This document shows, one piece after another, positions 1 to 26,205 of a DNA stretch of 30,202 nt. Numbering within the stretch: position 1 is the stretch's first letter; each line of letters begins with the position of its first letter. Source of the DNA: a virus; the IMG/VR virus record IMGVR_UViG_3300009509_000078, positions 1 through 30,202 of that record; one strand, 5' to 3'. The notes under the pieces are model-generated. The model searched no databases and was not told the DNA's origin. It was given only the letters and a program-made list of their open reading frames with translations. Made by a program: the position numbers and the translations under genes.

Positions 1-1407
1 TTGTCTGGGCTAACTGGTTCGGGTATCACGGACATGAATAAGCGCGTGCAGATGGGTATGGACACCGCGTATGGATTTTTGGAGGGACTGACTGACCAAG
101 ACCAAATGATGAAACAGTTGATGATCGATATGCCAGAATTAAGCGCTGAATTAGCCTCGTTCATAGTTCGAATGAAGGATGAAGGCAAAACAGTGGAGGA
201 AGTAACGGCTGCTTTTGCGGACAAGATTAATAAACAGAAGGCAGATGAAGAGCTTAATAAATCATATCAAGAGTCAATAAGTACGATAAAGCAAGAATTT
301 ATGAGGTTGCTCATACCACTTTTGGCCATAATTGCGGAAGCAATGCCTCCGTTTATTGAATTTATGAAAGATGTTATCAATTTTTCAAAACCAATTATAG
401 CAGTAATTGGGAAGATTTTCAAATTTCTTGATGCGATAGGGGCTATAAAAGCCACACTTATAGGGTTTGGTGCATTAATAGTCGCTATCGGAGCTATTAT
501 AGCCGTTGCCATGGCCCCTGCTATCATGGTTTTTGGCGCTATTATGGCTGGTATAATCGCAACTGGTTATATATTATATGGGCTTTATAAAGCATTTGCG
601 TGGGCTATAGGCGGCATAATAGATTGGGTGAAAAAAGCTTGGAAAGCCCTATTTGGCTCTGGGCTGTTTGGGCTTGATAAAGCGATAGCTGCTCTGAAGG
701 CTCCATTTGAATTTTTAGTCGGCCTGTTCGAGAAAGTATGGGGATGGATTAAAAAGGTAGCCGATATAGCCCAGAAGCCTTTTACGGCTTTGAAAGAAGG
801 AGCAAAAGCAGCGGCTGGTGGCGTTTTATCTGTAGTTGAAAAAATACCAATAATTGGTAAAGCGGCATCGTGGGTGAAAGGCAAGCTCTTTGGTTCTGGG
901 CTTTTTGGAATACCTGAGGGTGCGGTTGAGACGATGAAACCGCTCGCCGCAATGCGAGGTTCATTGACTGATGTTGGGGTTGCAGCAGAGACACAGATAC
1001 CAGCAGTCAACAGATTCTTTGATTCAGTGTCTAAAGTAGATGAAATATCGCCAGCTGCCAAAACAGCTATGGCTGTGGCGACAGCGCCTGGTTTTGATCC
1101 ATATAGCGCAGAATCAATTCTTTCTGGTATGGCTGGTTCTGGTGTTATGGGTGCGGCTGCGTACACGACGCCAGTCAAACCAGTTGCTACGGCTATCGAT
1201 CAGGAAATGGGAAGAGAAACTCGCGGTGAAAAAGAAATGAGGGAGATGAAAGAATCATTTGAGAAATCTATAGAACCGATAAAAATCATAATTGAGTTGT
1301 TAACCAATAATAAAGACGCAAAATCAATACTATCTGTGTTGGAGCGTTATCTCCCCAAAATGGCAGACCCTCCATCCGAGCTTGGGCCTACAGTTTCGAT
1401 GTGGTGA
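1..1407 (+). CDS. Tail tape measure protein, C-terminal part (5' truncated by window edge)
   Basis: The reading frame is open from the first base, so the true start lies outside the window; the TTG at base 1 is not taken as a start. The visible 468 residues are Ala/Gly/Ile/Lys rich. A helical, charged N-terminal stretch is followed by a long hydrophobic block at about residues 100-205, including runs of Ile, Ala and Gly typical of membrane-inserting segments. Then come amphipathic Trp/Lys-rich repeats: FGSGLFG occurs twice, near residues 218 and 299, each after a Lys-rich helix. This composition is usual for tape measure proteins, which set tail length inside the tube and may enter the host membrane on ejection. 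Its place directly upstream of baseplate genes fits the T4 order gp29-gp48-gp54. A membrane or other structural protein is the alternative, but context makes that less likely. Confidence 0.7.
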   Translation: MSGLTGSGITDMNKRVQMGMDTAYGFLEGLTDQDQMMKQLMIDMPELSAELASFIVRMKDEGKTVEEVTAAFADKINKQKADEELNKSYQESISTIKQEFMRLLIPLLAIIAEAMPPFIEFMKDVINFSKPIIAVIGKIFKFLDAIGAIKATLIGFGALIVAIGAIIAVAMAPAIMVFGAIMAGIIATGYILYGLYKAFAWAIGGIIDWVKKAWKALFGSGLFGLDKAIAALKAPFEFLVGLFEKVWGWIKKVADIAQKPFTALKEGAKAAAGGVLSVVEKIPIIGKAASWVKGKLFGSGLFGIPEGAVETMKPLAAMRGSLTDVGVAAETQIPAVNRFFDSVSKVDEISPAAKTAMAVATAPGFDPYSAESILSGMAGSGVMGAAAYTTPVKPVATAIDQEMGRETRGEKEMREMKESFEKSIEPIKIIIELLTNNKDAKSILSVLERYLPKMADPPSELGPTVSMW

Positions 1408-7562: not shown

Positions 7563-7579
7563 TATTTAAGGAGATAGCC

Positions 7580-7747
7580 ATGCCAGGCATGGATAAGACT
7601 GGCCCAGTTGGCAGAGGCCCTGGTATTGGGAAAGGGCGTGGAAAGAAAAAGGTGATCGGAGGTCAGGGTCGCAAGCGAGGCAAGGGCCGCAAATTTGGGC
7701 TTGGTGGCTTAATGGGAAAAGGATTCCTTAAAGGACCAAATCTGTAA
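7580..7747 (+). CDS. Small Gly/Lys/Arg-rich basic protein with DUF5320-like N-terminus
   Basis: A 55-residue protein with a strong ribosome binding site (TAAGGAGA) seven to eight bases before the ATG. It is almost entirely Gly, Lys, Arg, Pro and Leu. The N-terminus MPGMDKTGPVGRGPGIGKGR follows the pattern MPG-x-D-x-T-G-P-x-G-x-G-P of DUF5320, a family of short cellular proteins of unknown function found in anaerobic bacteria and archaea. The C-terminal half (GKGRKFGLGGLMGKGFLKGP) is a basic Gly-rich tail and lacks the aromatic/Cys residues many DUF5320 members have. The stop overlaps the next ATG (TAATG). It could bind DNA or RNA or be a minor virion protein. Recognition of the family rests on the first ~15 residues only. 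Confidence 0.7.
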   Translation: MPGMDKTGPVGRGPGIGKGRGKKKVIGGQGRKRGKGRKFGLGGLMGKGFLKGPNL

Positions 7748-7902
7748 TGCACGATGAAGAAGCATGCTCCGCTTGTGGCAAGCCAGCCAACGGATTTATA
7801 TTGGTCGACGGTTTATGGATATGTAATGAATGCGCCGAAAAAGCTGGGAAAACTATTCCACCCTTTAGGTCTGGCAAATCTGAAAGCAAGATCCCTCATT
7901 GA
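7747..7902 (+). CDS. 51-residue zinc-ribbon protein
   Basis: The ATG overlaps the previous stop (TAATG). The product has two Cys pairs, CSACG near residue 7 and CNECA near residue 26, separated by 15 residues with the pattern P-A-N-G-F-I-L-V-D-G-L-W-I. This is a standard zinc-ribbon spacing, close to the N-terminal ribbon of ClpX-type and small phage ribbon proteins. A short basic tail follows. Such peptides often contact nucleic acid or a protein partner, but no partner is named by the sequence. The stop (TGA 7900-7902) falls within another open frame, which may be a fused or separate downstream product (see next entry). Confidence 0.65.
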   Translation: MHDEEACSACGKPANGFILVDGLWICNECAEKAGKTIPPFRSGKSESKIPH

Positions 7903-8164
7903 TGTCTCGCCAGATGGAATAGACGTAAGAAATGTCACTGAAAAAGATGCGGCGAGGCCATTTCGTGGCGACTTATGGATTGGGTTCACGTTGCTTTGGG
8001 GGCACTTTAATGGCCCAAAGCAGAAGATTATGGTAATTACAGATGGCGAAGAGGTGTTACGCGTTGACTCCTCATATTATGAATCAATAAACAATCGCGA
8101 TAAATATCAAGTAGACCAAGTGTTGAAGAAATACGTACTGAATCAGCTTGAGGACATCTTTTGA
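7826..8164 (+). CDS. Hypothetical protein with unresolved start (possible +1 frameshift product)
   Basis: The part with convincing protein character runs from about 7901 to the stop at 8162-8164. It is a mixed alpha/beta protein of roughly 88 residues with GDLWIGFTLLWGHFNG, KIMVITDGEEVLRV and an ending KYVLNQLEDIF. No ATG, GTG or TTG lies in this frame near 7900. The nearest in-frame ATGs are at 7826 and 7754, both deep inside the zinc-ribbon gene in another frame. I list the 7826 start as the least overlapping one. Alternatives are a rare ATT start at 7898, or a +1 shift at the zinc-ribbon TGA that would fuse the ribbon to this domain. Function unknown. Confidence 0.4.
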   Translation: MNAPKKLGKLFHPLGLANLKARSLIDVSPDGIDVRNVTEKDAARPFRGDLWIGFTLLWGHFNGPKQKIMVITDGEEVLRVDSSYYESINNRDKYQVDQVLKKYVLNQLEDIF

Positions 8165-8165
8165 A

Positions 8166-8326
8166 GGTTCTGACGGGACGCTCTCTGGGATGGTCCAACG
8201 CAGCTGAGAAACGCTAAAGGAGACAACCTCACTGCGAGGTAACTCAAAAGTTGCGGATTGAGCCTGATGGCTCCTGGCTGCGTGGAAATACTGGAGAAGC
8301 GGCGGAGGGATTGACCTCCGAACCGT
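8166..8326 (+). ncRNA. Candidate structured non-coding RNA
   Basis: There is no credible reading frame here, but many helices can be paired by eye. A 7-bp stem ACGCAGC (8198-8204) with GCTGCGT (8277-8283) encloses AGGAG (8218-8222) with CTCCT (8271-8275), which in turn encloses two hairpins: ACCTC/GAGGT (8226-8230/8236-8240) and CTCAA/TTGAG (8243-8247/8258-8262). Downstream is the hairpin CGGAGG/CCTCCG (8303-8308/8315-8320). GGTTC (8166-8170) could pair with GAACC (8320-8324) to close the whole domain; this shares one base with the hairpin. The 5' bases GGTTCTGACGGG resemble the D-loop region of tmRNA, but no matching acceptor end or tag frame is seen. It could be an mRNA leader element or an independent RNA. 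Confidence 0.4.
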
Positions 8327-8346
8327 TATTCACCCCCCTTATACTT

Positions 8347-8389
8347 GCCAGGGCTGGTGCTTCGTGGAGTTCGATTCTCCACCCTGGCA
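8347..8389 (+). ncRNA. tRNA-like minihelix: acceptor stem plus T arm, no D or anticodon arm
   Basis: The geometry is exactly that of the top half of a tRNA. A 7-bp acceptor stem GCCAGGG (8347-8353) pairs with CCCTGGC (8382-8388), followed by a discriminator-like A. It is stacked directly on a 5-bp T stem TGGAG/CTCCA (8365-8369/8377-8381) with the canonical 7-base T loop TTCGATT, including the G53-C61 closing pair and R57-A58. Positions 8-48 of a tRNA are replaced by 11 bases (8354-8364). There is no CCA; TCA follows and then the ATG of the next gene. It may be a deleted tRNA gene, a functional tRNA mimic, or a leader hairpin controlling the downstream gene. Confidence 0.5.
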
Positions 8390-8392
8390 TCA

Positions 8393-8710
8393 ATGTGCGA
8401 CGTGTGTGACAAAAAAGAATGCCAAAATGAATTGAAGCACTTTGTCATCGATATGTTGTGGAAAGAACTTAAAGTTAAATATCCAAAGTTAGAAATAGAC
8501 GTGCACCCAAACTCATTGCATGTCATACGTGGCGACAACGTGAGCGATATGGTCTTGAAAATTTTGTTCGATGGCGATCGCATGGTGGTGTGGAGATGCA
8601 TCCCACGCTACAACAGTGACCCAGAAAAGATTTATGCAGCTGATCCAGAGTTTATAGCTAAGATATTTGATGTAATGGAAGGTAGGAGACCAGTCCCAAA
8701 ATGGAGCTAG
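8393..8710 (+). CDS. Hypothetical 105-residue protein with N-terminal Cys cluster
   Basis: I choose ATG 8393 because an upstream in-frame TTG would translate the tRNA-like helix. The product starts MCDVCDKKEC, a possible half metal site. An alpha/beta domain follows, with helix KHFVIDMLWKELKVKYP and strands LEIDVHPNSLHVIRG, MVLKILFDGDRMVVWRC, and ends with a helix and a Pro-Lys-Trp-Ser tail. The ATG lies three bases after the tRNA-like minihelix. There is no ribosome binding site at normal distance; the closest, TGGAG, is buried in the T stem 23 bases upstream. Translation may therefore depend on opening that structure. The stop overlaps the start of the next small gene. Family not recognised. 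Confidence 0.6.
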   Translation: MCDVCDKKECQNELKHFVIDMLWKELKVKYPKLEIDVHPNSLHVIRGDNVSDMVLKILFDGDRMVVWRCIPRYNSDPEKIYAADPEFIAKIFDVMEGRRPVPKWS

Positions 8711-8808
8711 AAATTGGTTGGAGACTGATGGTTGTATTGCTATGCGCAATAATTTGTTTTGCTTTTGTGATATTCGGCCATGCAGTTCAGAAATATAAGA
8801 AGCACTAG
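8701..8808 (+). CDS. 35-residue single-span membrane peptide
   Basis: The ATG is inside the end of the previous gene (10-base overlap), with AGGAG 12 bases upstream. The peptide has a short acidic N-terminus (MELEIGWR), one hydrophobic span of about 19 residues (LMVVLLCAIICFAFVIFG) and a basic tail (QKYKKH), predicting an N-out/C-in inner membrane peptide by the positive-inside rule. Its stop codon overlaps the stop of the convergent minus-strand gene. Small size and topology resemble phage membrane peptides such as holin-like, superinfection-exclusion or toxin-like peptides, but nothing in the sequence decides between them. Confidence 0.55.
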   Translation: MELEIGWRLMVVLLCAIICFAFVIFGHAVQKYKKH

Positions 8809-9059
8809 CAATCAAGTTCTGTCACTATTTTGCCTTTCATGAATCTGATTGCTTTTGCCATCAATCTCGCAGCATCATAATGATGATTATTGTTCTCATT
8901 AAGATGATATGAGTATGGCTCTTCTGTGCCATCCATTCTAAATATAAATACCAATTCTTTTATGTTATGCTCTGCTCTTATTTTATCTAGCGCATCAAAT
9001 ATAGCCGTCATTCTCTTCTCTTCTGGGGTCATCTGGTCTTCCTCTTTTGCCTTCTTCAT
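8805..9059 (-). CDS. Hypothetical 84-residue protein, the only minus-strand gene
   Basis: A textbook ribosome binding site (AGGAG, the complement of 9065-9069) sits five bases before the ATG, and the protein composition looks genuine. A charged N-terminal helix (MKKAKEEDQMTPEEKRMTAI) is followed by a helix, a strand LVFIFRMDG, a His/Asn-rich turn (NENNNHHYDAA) and a final helix. It converges on the membrane-peptide gene, and the two stops overlap by four bases. It is divergent from the gene that starts at 9086 or 9128, so a promoter for it must lie at about 9060-9130, within or before that gene. Being the sole gene on this strand, it is probably expressed on its own schedule (early or regulatory). 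Function not recognised. Confidence 0.7.
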   Translation of the reverse strand: MKKAKEEDQMTPEEKRMTAIFDALDKIRAEHNIKELVFIFRMDGTEEPYSYHLNENNNHHYDAARLMAKAIRFMKGKIVTELDC

Positions 9060-9085
9060 GTTGTCTCCTCTTGTATTTGAGCTGC

Positions 9086-9703: not shown

Positions 9704-12700
9704 AATTCAAGAGGCATTTTACCAACGGACGCAATCCATTTGAATACATCGAATGGGCAAAAGAAGATATCGAGATAAAGAACGCATCTACGAATGAAAT
9801 CATATTCAAGATTGAACAAGCAGAAGTGCCAGTTAGCTTCGGGCGCAATGCGCGGGAGATCTTGGCGTCCAAATACTTCAGAATGACTGAAGTACCTATT
9901 GAGCTAGTGCCAGTCAATGAAACGAATAAGTTTGGTGCGGCGGTTCCTGAATGGTTGAGAAGGAACGAACCAACCAATGAAGTGAAGAGCATAAGGGCTG
10001 AATTGAAAGTTTTGAAAGATGAGGAAGAATATCTCAGGCTAAGATGCGATAAGAGGGATGTCGCTGAAGAGCTACAAGATGTAAGGAAGAAAATAACAGC
10101 ATTGAGAGTGAAATCTGACAAATATTTTACGCACGAAATTAGTGCCAAGCAGGTGTTCCATAGGCTTGCCGGATTTTGGACATATTGGGGGTGGATGGGC
10201 GGTTATTTTGATGCTGAGAGCGATGCTAGAATATTTTATGATGAAACTGTTTATATGCTATCGAACCAGATAGCCGCACCGAACACGCCACAATGGTTCA
10301 ATTCCGGGCTTTATTGGGCCTACGGGATAGAAGGCGACCAAAAAGGATTCTGGAGATATAATCCGGAAACAAAAGAAGTTGAGATAACATCTAATTTCTA
10401 TCAATATCCAGGCATACACGCATGTCACATTCTAGGCGCAAGTGATTCGCTTTTCGATGAGAGCGGCATTTATGACAATCTTACAATCGAAGCTAAGGCA
10501 TTTGCTATAGGAGGCGGCGCTGGGAAGAATACCAGCAATATCAGATCGAAATACGAATACCTTAGAACTGGCAGTAAGGCAAGCGGCTCGCAAGAGTTTG
10601 CGATGATAGATGACAAGAGCGCTGGTGTCATAAAGTCAGGCTCTGGACAGCGCAGGGCGGCCAAAATGGTGATAAAGGACATGGATGATCCGGAGGTTAT
10701 AGAATTCATAAAATGGAAAGCGACTGAAGAAAAGAAAGTTGCAGCATTAGCCGCCGCAGGATTCAGCGCAGCATGGGAAGGTGAGGCATATAAGACAGTA
10801 TCTGGTCAGAATTCTAACAACTCGGTTAGAATACCAGATGAATTCGTGTCTTTGATATTGGATGAAGAAGCAGATTGGGATATGACCAGTCGAACCACCG
10901 GAGATGTGGTTAGAACTGTGAAAGCCAAAGACTTGTGGAAGCTAATAGTCAAATGCTGTTGGGAAAGCGGCGATCCTGGCATTCAGTATGATTCGACCAT
11001 TCAAGCGTGGGATACATGTCCAAGAGATGGCAGGATAAGAGCCACCAATCCCTGTTCTGAGTATGTCTTTAAAGACAATACGTCATGCAATCTGGCTAGC
11101 ATCAATCTGCAGACTCTATTTGACAATAAAGGCCTGGTAATAGATGATTTTAATTTCGCATGCGCGCACTGGCTCACGATACTTGACATATCAGTCGACG
11201 CCGCCCAGTTGCCATCGAAGCAATTAGCCGAAGGCACTGCTATGTACAGAACCACTGGCCTTGGCCACACTGGTCTCGGCGCAGTGCTTGAGAGGCTTGG
11301 TATACCATACGATAGCGATGCTGCGTGTCACCTAGCTGCTGCTGTGTCATCGCTGATGACTGCACAATGTTATATGATGAGCGCCAAGTTGGCTAGCAAG
11401 CTTGGCTCGTTCGAGAATTTCAAGAGCAATAAGAAAGACATGCTTCGTGTGTTGAATAATCATCGTGTGGCGTCGGTTGGAAGCATCAAAACAAGCCAGA
11501 TGCAATACGAAGGCATAACAATTAAGCCATGGGAAATAAACCATTCACTCATCCCGAAGGATCTTAGTAAAGCAATGGTTACATCGTGGGACAATGCGAT
11601 CACATCCGGTAAGCGCCATGGATTTAGAAATGCTTTCGTCACATTGATACAGCCATCTGGTACTGTTGGCTTGTTGATGGGATGTGATACCACCGCCATT
11701 GAACCAGACTATTCTGCAGTTAAAGTAAAGCGGTTATCGGGCGGCGGCTCGATGAAGATTGTGAATTTGTCAATTAGGCAAGCATTGATAAATCTTGGGT
11801 ATACCGAAAATCAGATAGACGACATCGAAATCCACGTAGCTGGCAATAACACCCTTGACGGCGCGCCCCATATTAATAGAACATCGTTGCTCGAAGCTGG
11901 CATAATTGAAAAAGACGTAGATGCCATAGAGGCCCACCTTGACTCTGCCATCCAATTGCGCGACGCATTCAATAAATTATCACCAGAATCTATTAGAAAC
12001 ATAGGGCTTGTTCCTAATAGAGATGCGGATGTCAATGTCTTTAAGCAGATGAATTTTACTAAAGACCAATATATTGATGCCACAAAATGGATATGTGGCC
12101 ACGGCACAATAGAGGGCGCTCCCCATATCAAGCGCGAGCATTTGCCAGTTTTTGATTGCGCTGTTAGATCTGGATTTGGCAGTCGATATTTGAGATGGCA
12201 AGCGCATGTTAGAATGATGTGCGCCGTCTCTCCATTCATCTCTGGCGGCATAAGCAAGACGCTGAACATGCCATTCGAGGCTACACAAAGAGACATAGAG
12301 CAAGCGATGCTGATGGCATATGATGGCAGAGGTAGCGGCAGCGAATATTGTCCAGGTGGAACTAAATGCCTTGCAGTTTATAGGGATGGATCAAAAAGAT
12401 CGCAACCATTGATCAATCCGTATGACGTCAGGTGGTGGGACCCAATCTTGGAAGATAAGGTTTATCTGAGGGGCGCTCGTAAAAGACCGCCCAAGAAGCG
12501 CAACATGCAATGCCACGAGGTGACCATTAGGAATCCATCGGGCTCCGATAACAAATTCATCGTTAAGTTTGGTGAGTATGAAGACAATTCGTTGGCCGAA
12601 ATATGGATAGAAGTTACGAAAGACAATCCGTCGTTCTATCTCGCCATGAAGTGGGCGTCGAGAGCAATATCGAATGCCATTCAATACGGCATGCCATTGG

Positions 12701-22298: not shown

Positions 22299-22374
22299 GT
22301 TAACAAAACTCTCAAATATTTGACCACAAGGTGTGGATAATTCAATTCTACCCAAAAGATTAGGAGAAAGAAGC

Positions 22375-25300
22375 ATGGCAGGCACAGATCAGAACACAAA
22401 TCCGGCATCCCTTACTATGGATGCACGGAAGTTTCTGCGTGCAATCAACACTTCAGCTCAAGCTAGAATAGTCTTCTTCGAAGATTCGATCAAGGCTATC
22501 GGGCAGAAAGTGAACAAGAATTTTCGTCTGACATCGTTGGACGTCAATTCTTTGATATTCGAAGATGTCGATCAGAACCATTACTACCATGCTGATCTCA
22601 GCAGGAAGAGTGGCGGCAAGATCGAAATCTCCAATATCAGACCAATCACGATTGTTGATGAGCAGAAATCAGAGTCTTTCGAAAAGCATTGCCACGATCT
22701 CGTTGAATGCTTGTCGCGAGATGATTTCAAAGGAGCAGATAAGGCATTCAGAACCATCGAAGTGCAGAGATTCAGGCCATCTGTGATCCCCAATAATGGT
22801 TGGGTCACAACCAGAGATGGCGCAGCGCACTATATTGCTGTGGAATCAAACAGTGGTAAGGTGAATATTCCGGCTATTACAGAGGCATTCTGTGAAGCGA
22901 TTTCGGAATTCGTTGAATTAGACGAAGATGGTAAAGTCCTACGCTGCGAGTTCCCAGAAAGTGGCGAGAAATTCGACATTCCAATCAACGAGATGACAAG
23001 GCGCAGGCTAGTCGCTCACCACATGAAATCCGTCGCTGAGAGCGCCTGGCGCTCGGATTCCTATAAGAAGCTTATCGAGAACATTGCAGGAAACGTGTCA
23101 GTCGGTAACGTCCAGAGATCTGTACAGCTGGCAGCCAAGTTCCTCAAAGAGAACCAGGAATTCAGCCTATTGACTGCCGATGAGACCAAGCGGCTGGTTG
23201 ATAATGCGTTGGCATCAACAGGACAATTTAGTTCGATTCTTGCGGAAGATGTGGCGACGCTGTTATACCGCACGAATCTGAAGGTCAACAAGGACGACAT
23301 ATGCGAATCGTGGGAAAAGACGGCGCTGAAGGCAGAGAACGCCGAACTACTCCACAGTGCTAAGCTATTAGAATCATCCAATAATTTCGCTGCAGATTAT
23401 GATGCCTTCCTTGGCAAGATCCTCAATGAGGGGCTGGACGTACAGTCTGCCAGAGCCAAGGCCTATCTGACCACCTTGAAAGTGATCAATTCCATCATCG
23501 CAAAGATGGAAGGCAAAGAAGATCTGGCCAACCAGGTCGAGAGCATGATTGCAGAATTGGAAGAGCCAGAACCGAGCACAGAGATTATCCTTGAGGCTGA
23601 GCAGCTGCTGTGCAGCATTCCGGATACTCTGGTGGATAGAATCGTCACTCTTGAGAATTACACCGAAATTCCTGGGCTCGATGAGGGGCCAGCAGCTGGC
23701 GGCCCCGCCGAACCGGCTGGTGCGGCAGTAAGCTTGCCGTCTAAGGGCGGGGGCGGAGGCGGGTTGGGTGGCGGCGGCCTTGGTGGATTGGGCGGCCCTG
23801 GAGGCCCAGGTGGAGGCCCTGGAGGCCCCGGTGGCGGCCCTGCCGGAGCTCCTGGAGCACCTGGTCTTGAGGGCGGTGAAGAAGAGGAAGAGGAAGGCAA
23901 GAAGCCTCCAGGAGAGGAGGAAGAAGGCCTTCCTGAGTCCAAGAAGATAAAGGCTGCTGTCATCGAAGAGATGACCTTACAGCAGCTGTCCAGCGAGCTG
24001 GATCATTGGAAGACGGATGGGCACATCTATCTCGCAGAAGATGGGTTCGATGACTGCAACAGGCAGTTTGCTCGCTACATCAAGCGCTGCGAAGAGCTGG
24101 ATGCTTCACAGCTACGAGAGCAATTCGAATCGCTGCGCAACGTCATGATCGAGACCGGCGAGGATGTCATTGACGATTCCGTTGACAGTTCCGACCCCTA
24201 CGCCGGTATCGAGTATGGAGAGGATGTGAAGATCGATGAGGCATATGGTGCCTCTATGGGGAAACCCAGCGGTCATGGCGTTCCTACCAGTGGGAAGGCC
24301 CCATCCTCTCCACCATCAGCCAAGCCAGCCTCAGGCGACCACAAGATGGGCAAGCCTCAGGGGAAAGGTGTGGCTTCTAAGGATGGCGGCGAAGCCGATT
24401 ACTCCAGCGGGACTGGGCAGAAAATGGATCACATGGGTGGAAAGGGCGTCCAAGGCAAAAAGCTCAGCGATGCTGGATTGCCAGCCGAAAACGAAGATGA
24501 CCCCGACGCCGGTAAGCCAAAGACTGGCGGAGCGCAGATGGGCAGGCCACAAGGCAAGGGCGTGGCCGAGAGCGTCGGCGACCCGGAGAAGGTGAAACCT
24601 GGGACTGGCAAGCAATACAAAAGCGGCGGGAAATTCTATGGCAAACTTGATGCCGCCATTGCTTCCGAGCTGAAGTCTGGTGACCAGGACGACAAATTAA
24701 CGCCAGCCAAGCACAAAGCCCAGAAGGGTGGAGTGGCTGAAGGCAAGGGTGAGGTACCGGAAGCATTCAAGGCGCAATGGAAGAAGGGCGGCAAAAAAGA
24801 AGAGGGTGAAAAAGAAGAAAGTACCAAGTGCGAAAAGTGCAGCTGCGATCCGTGCGAGTGCGACAAGAAGCCCACCACGGAGGATGTGGCAGCGATCCTG
24901 CATCCATACATGGAAGGCAAAAAGATGTCCGCTGCATCGATTGCAGAGGCCATCATAAAGCTCAAGGAAGACGCCAAATCCAATCCGAAGCTAAAGAACG
25001 CTCTCAAGATCGTTGAGGCGTATGAATGGGATTGGGAGCCAAGACCAAGGAAGAGGCTGAGGTGTGACTTCTGCGATGCAGTTGGTGTTGGTGAAGAGGG
25101 AGATGTTTGCACCTCCTGCGACCAGGGCACTTTAACCTCGCCTGACAGCCCCGGTTTGACGGCGGATCTTCCGGCGCAGCCGACCATTCGCGACGTGCTG
25201 ATGAGGATCTCAGACGACACTGGAGAAGATGTCGCCGACCTGCACATGCGGCTGAAAGAAGATCCGTGGCAGTTCGTGAGCATCCACTCTGATTATATGG

Positions 25301-26205
25301 ATGAGGTGGAGAGAGACGAACTCTTGAACTATGGCGAGGAAGGATTCGCCCAGGTAGAGTCCCAATACAAAGGCCCAACGGTGGGCATGAGGCCGATGGG
25401 GTACAAGAAGTCTGCCATCAATGAATGGCTGACAAAAGAAGATGTGGCCACCATTCTCACAATTCTTAAAGAAACCGAGGAGAGTGAGGTACAGAAGCTG
25501 ATGGCGATAAAGGATCCAGTGCAAAGGGCTGCGGCCATCAGAAAGGCAAAAGAGAAATTAGATCTCGAAAATCCGTTCCAGAAGACGATCGGCCAAGGCG
25601 CGCCAAGGGCTGGCGAAGAAAAAGAATTGGAAAATGTATTCGCCAGCCTCGGATCTGGTGCGGACTACAAGAAAAAGAGAGCGGCTGCTGGGTTGTGCAC
25701 GTGCCCAGGCCGCGTGGTGAAAAACGATAGAGGCCAGTGTATCAAGTGCAAAAAGCCTGTAGAGGCCGGAGAGGAAGAGGCCTGGGAAGAGGCGGTCGAA
25801 ATCCTGAGGAAGGCCATCTTCGAGGGTAATGATCCTCAGGCGCAATTACACAAGCAGTACATCTCCACGTTGCTGGAGATGACCTACAACGAAAAGAAGG
25901 CCTCATTGCAAGAGAGCATGCTGGCAGTCTTCGCCGACGACGAGAGCATTGACAAGGTAATCGACGCAATCGTCACCACCATGGACAAGAAGGGGGAACT
26001 CTCGCCAGCAGCGGCGGTCGAACCGATGATGGGCGCGTCAATGGGCGCGGAAGCCCCTCCACTTTTTGGTGGTCCAGAGGAAGAAGCTGAGGAGGCAGAA
26101 GAGGCCGCCGGAGGGGCAGAGGAGGAAGCTGAGGAGGCAGAAGAGGCCGCCGAGGAAGCCGAAGAAGAAGCCGGGGAAGCCGAGGAAGCCGCTGAAGAGG
26201 ACTAA
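22375..26205 (+). CDS. Very large portal-adjacent protein with zinc-ribbon clusters, probable prohead core/structural protein
   Basis: ATG 22375 is preceded by AGGAG at normal spacing; an upstream GTG at 22333 is unlikely. The product is 1276 residues. Residues 1-430 are mixed alpha/beta and helical with no family I recognise. A Gly/Pro-rich stretch with collagen-like triplets follows (about 455-505), then an acidic patch. Residues 620-760 carry repeated M-G-[KR]-P-[QS]-G-[KH]-G-V elements. Three Cys clusters follow: C-x2-C-x-C-x2-C-x-C from residue 819, a four-Cys ribbon at 897-915 and one at 1108-1125. The last 60 residues are Glu/Ala repeats. It lies between portal and protease, where T4 has short core proteins (gp67, gp68), and its acidic E/A tail resembles theirs. 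Prohead-core function is inferred from position and composition. Its base composition is more GC-rich than the genes upstream. Confidence 0.6.
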   Translation: MAGTDQNTNPASLTMDARKFLRAINTSAQARIVFFEDSIKAIGQKVNKNFRLTSLDVNSLIFEDVDQNHYYHADLSRKSGGKIEISNIRPITIVDEQKSESFEKHCHDLVECLSRDDFKGADKAFRTIEVQRFRPSVIPNNGWVTTRDGAAHYIAVESNSGKVNIPAITEAFCEAISEFVELDEDGKVLRCEFPESGEKFDIPINEMTRRRLVAHHMKSVAESAWRSDSYKKLIENIAGNVSVGNVQRSVQLAAKFLKENQEFSLLTADETKRLVDNALASTGQFSSILAEDVATLLYRTNLKVNKDDICESWEKTALKAENAELLHSAKLLESSNNFAADYDAFLGKILNEGLDVQSARAKAYLTTLKVINSIIAKMEGKEDLANQVESMIAELEEPEPSTEIILEAEQLLCSIPDTLVDRIVTLENYTEIPGLDEGPAAGGPAEPAGAAVSLPSKGGGGGGLGGGGLGGLGGPGGPGGGPGGPGGGPAGAPGAPGLEGGEEEEEEGKKPPGEEEEGLPESKKIKAAVIEEMTLQQLSSELDHWKTDGHIYLAEDGFDDCNRQFARYIKRCEELDASQLREQFESLRNVMIETGEDVIDDSVDSSDPYAGIEYGEDVKIDEAYGASMGKPSGHGVPTSGKAPSSPPSAKPASGDHKMGKPQGKGVASKDGGEADYSSGTGQKMDHMGGKGVQGKKLSDAGLPAENEDDPDAGKPKTGGAQMGRPQGKGVAESVGDPEKVKPGTGKQYKSGGKFYGKLDAAIASELKSGDQDDKLTPAKHKAQKGGVAEGKGEVPEAFKAQWKKGGKKEEGEKEESTKCEKCSCDPCECDKKPTTEDVAAILHPYMEGKKMSAASIAEAIIKLKEDAKSNPKLKNALKIVEAYEWDWEPRPRKRLRCDFCDAVGVGEEGDVCTSCDQGTLTSPDSPGLTADLPAQPTIRDVLMRISDDTGEDVADLHMRLKEDPWQFVSIHSDYMDEVERDELLNYGEEGFAQVESQYKGPTVGMRPMGYKKSAINEWLTKEDVATILTILKETEESEVQKLMAIKDPVQRAAAIRKAKEKLDLENPFQKTIGQGAPRAGEEKELENVFASLGSGADYKKKRAAAGLCTCPGRVVKNDRGQCIKCKKPVEAGEEEAWEEAVEILRKAIFEGNDPQAQLHKQYISTLLEMTYNEKKASLQESMLAVFADDESIDKVIDAIVTTMDKKGELSPAAAVEPMMGASMGAEAPPLFGGPEEEAEEAEEAAGGAEEEAEEAEEAAEEAEEEAGEAEEAAEED
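26083..26152 (+). repeat. 28-bp direct repeat in the Glu/Ala tail
   Basis: An identical 28-base segment occurs at 26083-26110 and 26125-26152, a 42-base (14-codon) period. It codes the E-A-E-E-A-E-E-A-A repeats of the C-terminus. Perfect identity at DNA level points to recent duplication rather than selection on protein only. Confidence 0.85.

Follow-up and report, generated by a model that had tools for sequence, protein, structure and literature searches.

The window analyzed here is a complete IMG/VR virus record (30,202 bases) that carries T4-like genes, among them those for a baseplate wedge protein (phrog_219), a T4-type terminase, and a class II ribonucleotide reductase. Among annotated phages, the nearest relative of the terminase is that of Microcystis phage Mel-JY01, at 30% identity. 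Adjoining the structural genes is a 1290-aa open reading frame (22333 to 26205) that contains long low-complexity runs, either Gly/Pro/Ala or Glu rich. An accessory island (7563 to 9085) of small, poorly known genes, including those for a zinc-ribbon-like protein, a GHFNGPK protein, and a small basic protein, is situated between the baseplate gene and those preceding the reductase. The 180 bases upstream of the tRNA-like element described below are noncoding, the preceding gene ending at 8164; the gene that follows the element (8393 to 8710) encodes a protein of 105 aa with CxxC motifs and no assigned function. An ATAAATA motif at 8100 was considered as a T4-type late promoter and set aside, the motif being no commoner than chance.

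Immediately before the start codon at 8393, a sequence-only reading had recognized the top half of a tRNA, consisting of an acceptor stem and a T arm, and this is confirmed by direct reading. On the plus strand, where all of the features given here are located, the acceptor-like 5′ strand GCCAGGG (8347 to 8353) pairs with CCCUGGC (8382 to 8388), with U8346 and A8389 as a possible eighth pair. An 11-nt stretch, CTGGTGCTTCG (8354 to 8364), replaces the D and anticodon arms and leads into the T arm UGGAG-UUCGAUU-CUCCA (8365 to 8381; stem strands at 8365 to 8369 and 8377 to 8381, loop TTCGATT at 8370 to 8376). The 7-bp acceptor stem is directly stacked on a 5-bp T stem with a TTCRANY loop, as in tRNA (RF00005), although the predicted minimum-energy fold lacks the T arm, and the 3′ strand continues into a discriminator-like A8389 and a CCA-like UCA (8390 to 8392), followed by the ATG. 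Unlike a cloverleaf, the element has no D or anticodon arm and no RF00005 match over the cutoff; neither ARAGORN nor Rfam at curated cutoffs gave a match on it. A descriptor of the half-tRNA (7-bp acceptor, gap of 3 to 60, 5-bp T stem with G53-C61, and loop TTCRANY), written after the element had been seen, matched once in the window versus 0 times in 400 dinucleotide shuffles, consistent with the earlier view that the arrangement is more than chance. In 1.26 Mb of other loci, its matches had gaps of 37 to 59 nt, as in whole tRNAs, and one further match with a 12-nt gap was an alternative reading of a whole tRNA. Three phage records (G004, G007, and G008, corresponding to L005, L048, and L050) have about 47 to 49 tRNA matches each; none were found in G001 to G003 or in the window.

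The half-tRNA was originally treated as an element on its own. Comparison with related phages indicates instead that it forms the 3′ part of a structured RNA of ~230 nt (about 8166 to 8392), whose conserved upstream structure (8166 to 8334) had been missed. Two related phages came from a search with the baseplate gene, whose protein is 74% identical in L001 and 66% identical in L003; L002 is a 100% identical copy of L003, and the two were counted as one. Both have a stretch homologous to the accessory island, and the RNA is found at the same genomic place in all three of these uncultured phages. All comparisons of the RNA rest on these three metagenome phages, two of which are close.

The 5′ domain (8166 to 8334) is predicted to be multibranched, with a three-way junction closed by helix Pa (UGACGG at 8171 to 8176, CCGUUA at 8323 to 8328). 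Helix Pa covaries, reading UGAGGG/CCCUCA in L001 and UGAUGG/CUAUCA in L003, such that one pair is C-G, G-C, and U-A in the three phages. Helix Pb (8179 to 8188 with 8291 to 8301) has 8 alignment pairs, 5 of them with changes on both sides. Helix Pc (UCCA(A)CGCAGCU at 8194 to 8205 with 8276 to 8286) differs in sequence among the phages and, in a hand alignment, is paired in all three, with a tandem G.A step in L001. A hairpin at 8220 to 8245 (GAG..ACCUC-ACUGC-GAGGU..CUC) is likewise paired in each phage, and its loop, (A)YUGC, and the CUCAAA that follows it are kept. A second hairpin (CGGAGG-GAUUGA-CCUCCG, 8303 to 8320) is nearly identical in the three phages apart from an outer pair that changes from C-G to U-A. 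The motifs CUGANGGGAYG, UAAAK, (A)YUGCG, CUCAAA, and GGAGG-RAUKGA-CCUCC occur in this order in all three. Between the 5′ domain and the tail is an unpaired, AU-containing linker (8335 to 8346) ending in U8346, the −1 position; its sequence is CUUAUACUU in the window, AAUAAAAUU in L001, and CAUAUAGUU in L003, with GCY next in each.

Several measures point to a conserved structure in the 5′ domain. A cmsearch with model R1 gave a full-length match at 8170 to 8334 (115 bits), alongside those in L001 and L003, all three sequences having been used to build R1. The fold z scores of the domain relative to shuffles are −4.4 in the window and −2.3 and −5.7 in the other two phages, versus −1.1 and +0.9 for the flanking stretches of the window. 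The core alignment (A3) has 28 pairs, of which 9 show changes on both sides, and 92% of its cells are paired; these counts lean towards structure, as the structure was set by hand and optional hairpins were excluded. Shuffles of A3 gave 3.9 such pairs and 82% paired, with 0 of 500 as high as observed, and sliding the partner strand gave at most 3 changed pairs and 55% paired. Among the 4,227 Rfam families, none matched over its cutoff, and none matched at an E value of 10 within 8000 to 8500 of the window; in L001 and L003, Rfam matches were at chance level. The comparison thus shows a previously undescribed structured RNA that is conserved in three phages. A short sequence in L001 (CTCTGACGGGACT, 11205 to 11215), within an insert described below, resembles the start of the 5′ domain of the window (TTCTGACGGGACG); R1 did not detect a second copy of the domain in L001.

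The tail follows the 5′ domain at a constant offset of 22 to 28 nt, and past the linker each RNA continues with U-G-C-Y and then a local helix. The homologues of the acceptor 5′ strand, GCCGGGA in L001 and GCUAGAG in L003, are both paired, their 3′ counterparts being UC(G)CCGGU-G-CCA and CUCUGGC-A-CCA, respectively. Across the eight pairs of this helix, 24 of 24 cells pair and 3 of 8 pairs are changed on both sides, a level of covariation reached in 23 of 500 shuffles (three sequences, with the bulged G of L001 left out). Taken alone, the covariation of the tail is moderate evidence for a conserved helix. Also kept in all three are U−1, G+1, a purine at 73, and a (C/U)CA end, which is CCA in L001 and L003 and UCA in the window. 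Compensatory changes in both stems, together with a kept T loop, had been proposed as a sign of function. The acceptor stem shows them among the three phages and the T arm does not; its covariation between the window and L001 is impossible because the arm is identical in the two, and L003 has a GAAA-capped extension of the hairpin in its place.

The three tails differ in their apical parts. In L001, the middle of the tail is about 205 nt instead of 11 nt, the acceptor helix contains one bulged G, and a 19-nt sequence that includes the T arm, CGTGGAGTTCGATTCTCCA, is identical to that of the window despite divergence elsewhere. An unconstrained fold of the L001 tail alone recovers both the acceptor helix and the T arm. 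Its last 76 bases score 12.5 bits against RF00005 (cutoff, 29) and resemble a degenerate tRNA body with two acceptor mismatches, a 14-nt anticodon loop, and a retained but degenerate D arm. Because this degenerate body precedes an identical T arm, the form found in the window is probably derived from a tRNA. The presence of a complete tRNA in related phages had been named as an outcome that would reduce the window copy to a random deletion. The L001 tail goes partway toward this; however, random deletion is insufficient, because it leaves the acceptor compensatory changes, the CCA-like end, and the conserved upstream domain unexplained. In L003, the tail is a plain 13- to 14-bp hairpin with a tetraloop, GCUAGAGCCACGC-GAAA-GUGUGGCUCUGGC-A-CCA. 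The T loop is found only in the window and L001; because L003 has a GAAA loop, no T-loop function can be common to all three.

Thermodynamic prediction also bears on the T arm. The ViennaRNA minimum for the window tail (−22.6 kcal/mol) lacks it, and UGG at 8355 to 8357 instead pairs with CCA at 8379 to 8381, lengthening the acceptor helix. The predicted energy is −19.1 kcal/mol for the tRNA-like form and −20.4 kcal/mol for the best suboptimal fold that includes the T arm, so that the rival pairing is favored by 2 to 3.5 kcal/mol. The probability of the T stem is about 0.03 under nearest-neighbor energies, which do not include the tertiary stability of the T loop. The acceptor helix is present in both folds. 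This prediction, the 14-bp GAAA hairpin of L003, and the degeneracy of the L001 tRNA body (12.5 bits) would suit a tail that is a mere terminal hairpin, its T arm having once been captured from a tRNA in the lineage of the window and L001 and now having no tRNA-related role. We consider this unlikely, at roughly one in five, since it does not account for a YCA end and U−1/G+1 kept in all three phages or for a T arm that is identical in two of them amid changed surroundings. An intrinsic terminator was ruled out, as there is no U-tract, and so was an attP site within a tRNA 3′ end, as the 5′ acceptor strand is also present.

The gene at 8393 starts directly after the UCA and has no Shine-Dalgarno sequence. 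Its homologue in L001, whose protein is 50% identical, has the same start position relative to the RNA, and a different gene follows the RNA in L003. As the next gene is homologous in only two of the three phages, the RNA is not tied to it. These observations weigh on the proposal that the tail is a translational switch whose T stem holds the only Shine-Dalgarno-like bases available to the gene at 8393. The absence of a Shine-Dalgarno sequence in both the window and L001, and starts only 3 to 4 nt past the acceptor strand, would fit such a switch. However, 23 nt separate the GGAG from the ATG downstream, too great a distance for a Shine-Dalgarno sequence, and L003 keeps the RNA ahead of another gene, which makes the switch very improbable. 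The starts at 8393 in the window and 11342 in L001, 3 to 4 nt after the acceptor strand and with no Shine-Dalgarno sequence, are unlike those of many genes in the window; a leaderless start after processing is possible for both.

Bacterial RNase P recognizes a U at −1, a G at +1, a purine at 73, and YCA (PMC4919922), and its substrates have a coaxial acceptor/T-like helix of ~12 bp, G+1, a preferred U−1, and a 3′ RCCA (PMC4919922, PMC11143913). The helix, U−1, G+1, and R73 are found in the window, L001, and L003, with UCA rather than CCA in the window, and by these features all three tails fit an RNase P substrate. We place a probability of roughly 45% on the tail being a tRNA-mimicking processing or 3′-end signal, most simply a substrate of RNase P. 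A role as minihelix substrate or processing signal was among those raised in the sequence-only reading, and it fits best. The stretch from 8166 to 8392 would then be one RNA, in which a short AU-rich linker joins the multibranched 5′ domain to a 3′ minihelix that mimics tRNA and has an acceptor stem, a T arm, and a CCA-like end. We infer that it is transcribed and that its tail would be recognized by host enzymes of tRNA maturation; the simplest candidate is RNase P, with a cut between U8346 and G8347. Such a cut would fix the 3′ end of the upstream RNA and detach that RNA from the message downstream; with 3′ trimming after A8389, the mRNA of the gene at 8393 would be almost leaderless, and the mature RNA may itself have a role. 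Processing is favored by the descriptor result, the acceptor helix paired in all three phages, the T arm shared by the window and L001, the unaided fold of the L001 tail, and the constant position of the tail after the 5′ domain while the following gene differs in L003. Against it are the small number of phages, the UCA of the window, the apical pairing preferred in its predicted fold, the GAAA loop of L003, and the ability of U−1 to pair with A73 in the window and L003; RNase P can be slowed by pairing between leader and RCCA, for which two pairs is the reported threshold (PMC9433436). Tetraloop versions of substrates are cut by RNase P more poorly and at a shifted position (PMC4919922; PMC11143913).

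Known RNAs offer partial parallels to the proposed processing. The best Rfam match of 8347 to 8388 is mascRNA-menRNA (RF01684), at 19.2 bits and an E value of 0.032, below the threshold of 42.5. As in the phage RNA, a longer noncoding RNA is followed there by a reduced tRNA-like element with an acceptor stem and T arm, mascRNA and menRNA being found at the 3′ ends of MALAT1 and NEAT1; in MALAT1, the element is flanked by cuts of RNase P and RNase Z (PMC12941219; PMC4919922), and this processing gives MALAT1 its 3′ end (PMC12941219). Unlike the phage RNA, whose middle is only 11 nt in the window, these are made by polymerase II in mammals and contain a triple helix, and we would draw the comparison as one of layout, not of descent, and claim no relationship. 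Among phage RNAs other than tRNAs that are cut by RNase P, the C4 antisense RNA precursor of phages P1 and P7 is described, in the citing passages of PMC4919922 and PMC11143913, as being processed via a tRNA-like structure by the bacterial enzyme. The C4 family is in Rfam and has no match here; the likeness is a general one.

The tail could alternatively be left uncut and kept as the mature 3′ end, its CCA and tRNA fold protecting the RNA or recruiting the CCA-adding enzyme or EF-Tu, as in tmRNA or the tRNA-like domains of plant virus RNAs. Consistent with this, R-YCA is encoded in all three phages, and the tail is at the extreme 3′ end, immediately ahead of the next gene in the window and L001. 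However, EF-Tu or a synthetase would probably bind the GAAA hairpin of L003 poorly, and the RNA 5′ end lies outside the tRNA-like fold, unlike that of tmRNA, so we regard a retained tail as unlikely. The resemblance to tmRNA, including the permuted two-piece form (RF01850), lies in a T arm, acceptor strand, and CCA that end a structured RNA. In the window, the 5′ acceptor strand stands directly before the T arm and not at the RNA 5′ end; a tmRNA is marked by an acceptor stem formed from its two ends, the D loop GGNUUCGAC, and a tag reading frame, and the acceptor here closes locally over 11 nt. The T arm matched beta_tmRNA (86 to 121) weakly, at 6 bits; no tmRNA was found by ARAGORN, and none exceeded the Rfam cutoff. 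The conserved motifs had also suggested a tmRNA, a group I intron, or a permuted tRNA, and these candidates were rejected for lack of matches and wrong strand order.

The tail might also serve as a decoy or substrate for enzymes of acceptor stems and T arms, such as tRNA-targeting defense toxins or tRNA modification enzymes. Its geometry suits minihelix readers, and the accessory island is absent from more distant relatives, as may often be so for counterdefense genes. The window gives no hint of such a target, the conserved 5′ domain would be superfluous in a decoy, and L003 has no T loop; we hold this role to be quite improbable, if less so than the translational switch.

Processing of the proposed kind would make the tail a natural counterpart of the acceptor-T-arm minihelices constructed in RNase P research, joined to a phage RNA. 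The three phages form a natural series (a T-loop minihelix, a T arm with a long insert, and a tetraloop hairpin) that would allow one to test which tRNA parts a phage needs for host tRNA machinery, and the 5′ domain is a new structured RNA on an accessory island of T4-like phages. That the RNA represents a new class of phage noncoding RNA, confined to one clade of uncultured T4-like phages, with a 3′ acceptor-T-arm minihelix read by host tRNA enzymes and acting in trans, is a tentative proposal to which we give about one chance in four.

The baseplate search described above, made with the baseplate J protein, gave three phages (L001 to L003), and a scan with the alignment of this protein gave some 35 relatives at about 43 to 54% identity. 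R1 did not find the RNA in the loci or larger records of these relatives and yielded no convincing match in the further loci and records covered; the island is missing from the distant relatives inspected (about 43 to 54% baseplate identity). The exact element had no match in IMG/VR, and scans with island proteins found only the same phages. Annotated phages contain no related DNA, chance matches aside, and no relatives of the proteins flanking the RNA; the tRNA-like tail of L001 has no relatives among annotated phages or plasmids. DNA-pattern scans with the motifs of the 5′ domain, which included GTDB genomes and were judged by reading and by covariance model, returned the same three phages and chance matches. 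One of these scans also gave L005, which was judged weak. Its hairpin GGTTGGAGG-AATGGA-CCTCCAACC (117 to 134, minus strand, record G004) resembles the GGAGG-RAUKGA-CCUCC hairpin of the RNA and scores 15.5 bits against R1 (E value of 0.066), which may be chance; the phage is 154 kb long and has 48 tRNA matches, and one tRNA lies ~33 nt downstream of the hairpin. We also found, directly upstream of the RNA and in L001 only, an open reading frame of 145 aa (10466 to 10903) with weak PARP or KptA-like ADP-ribosyl matches (PF00644, E value of 6e-4, below the cutoff).
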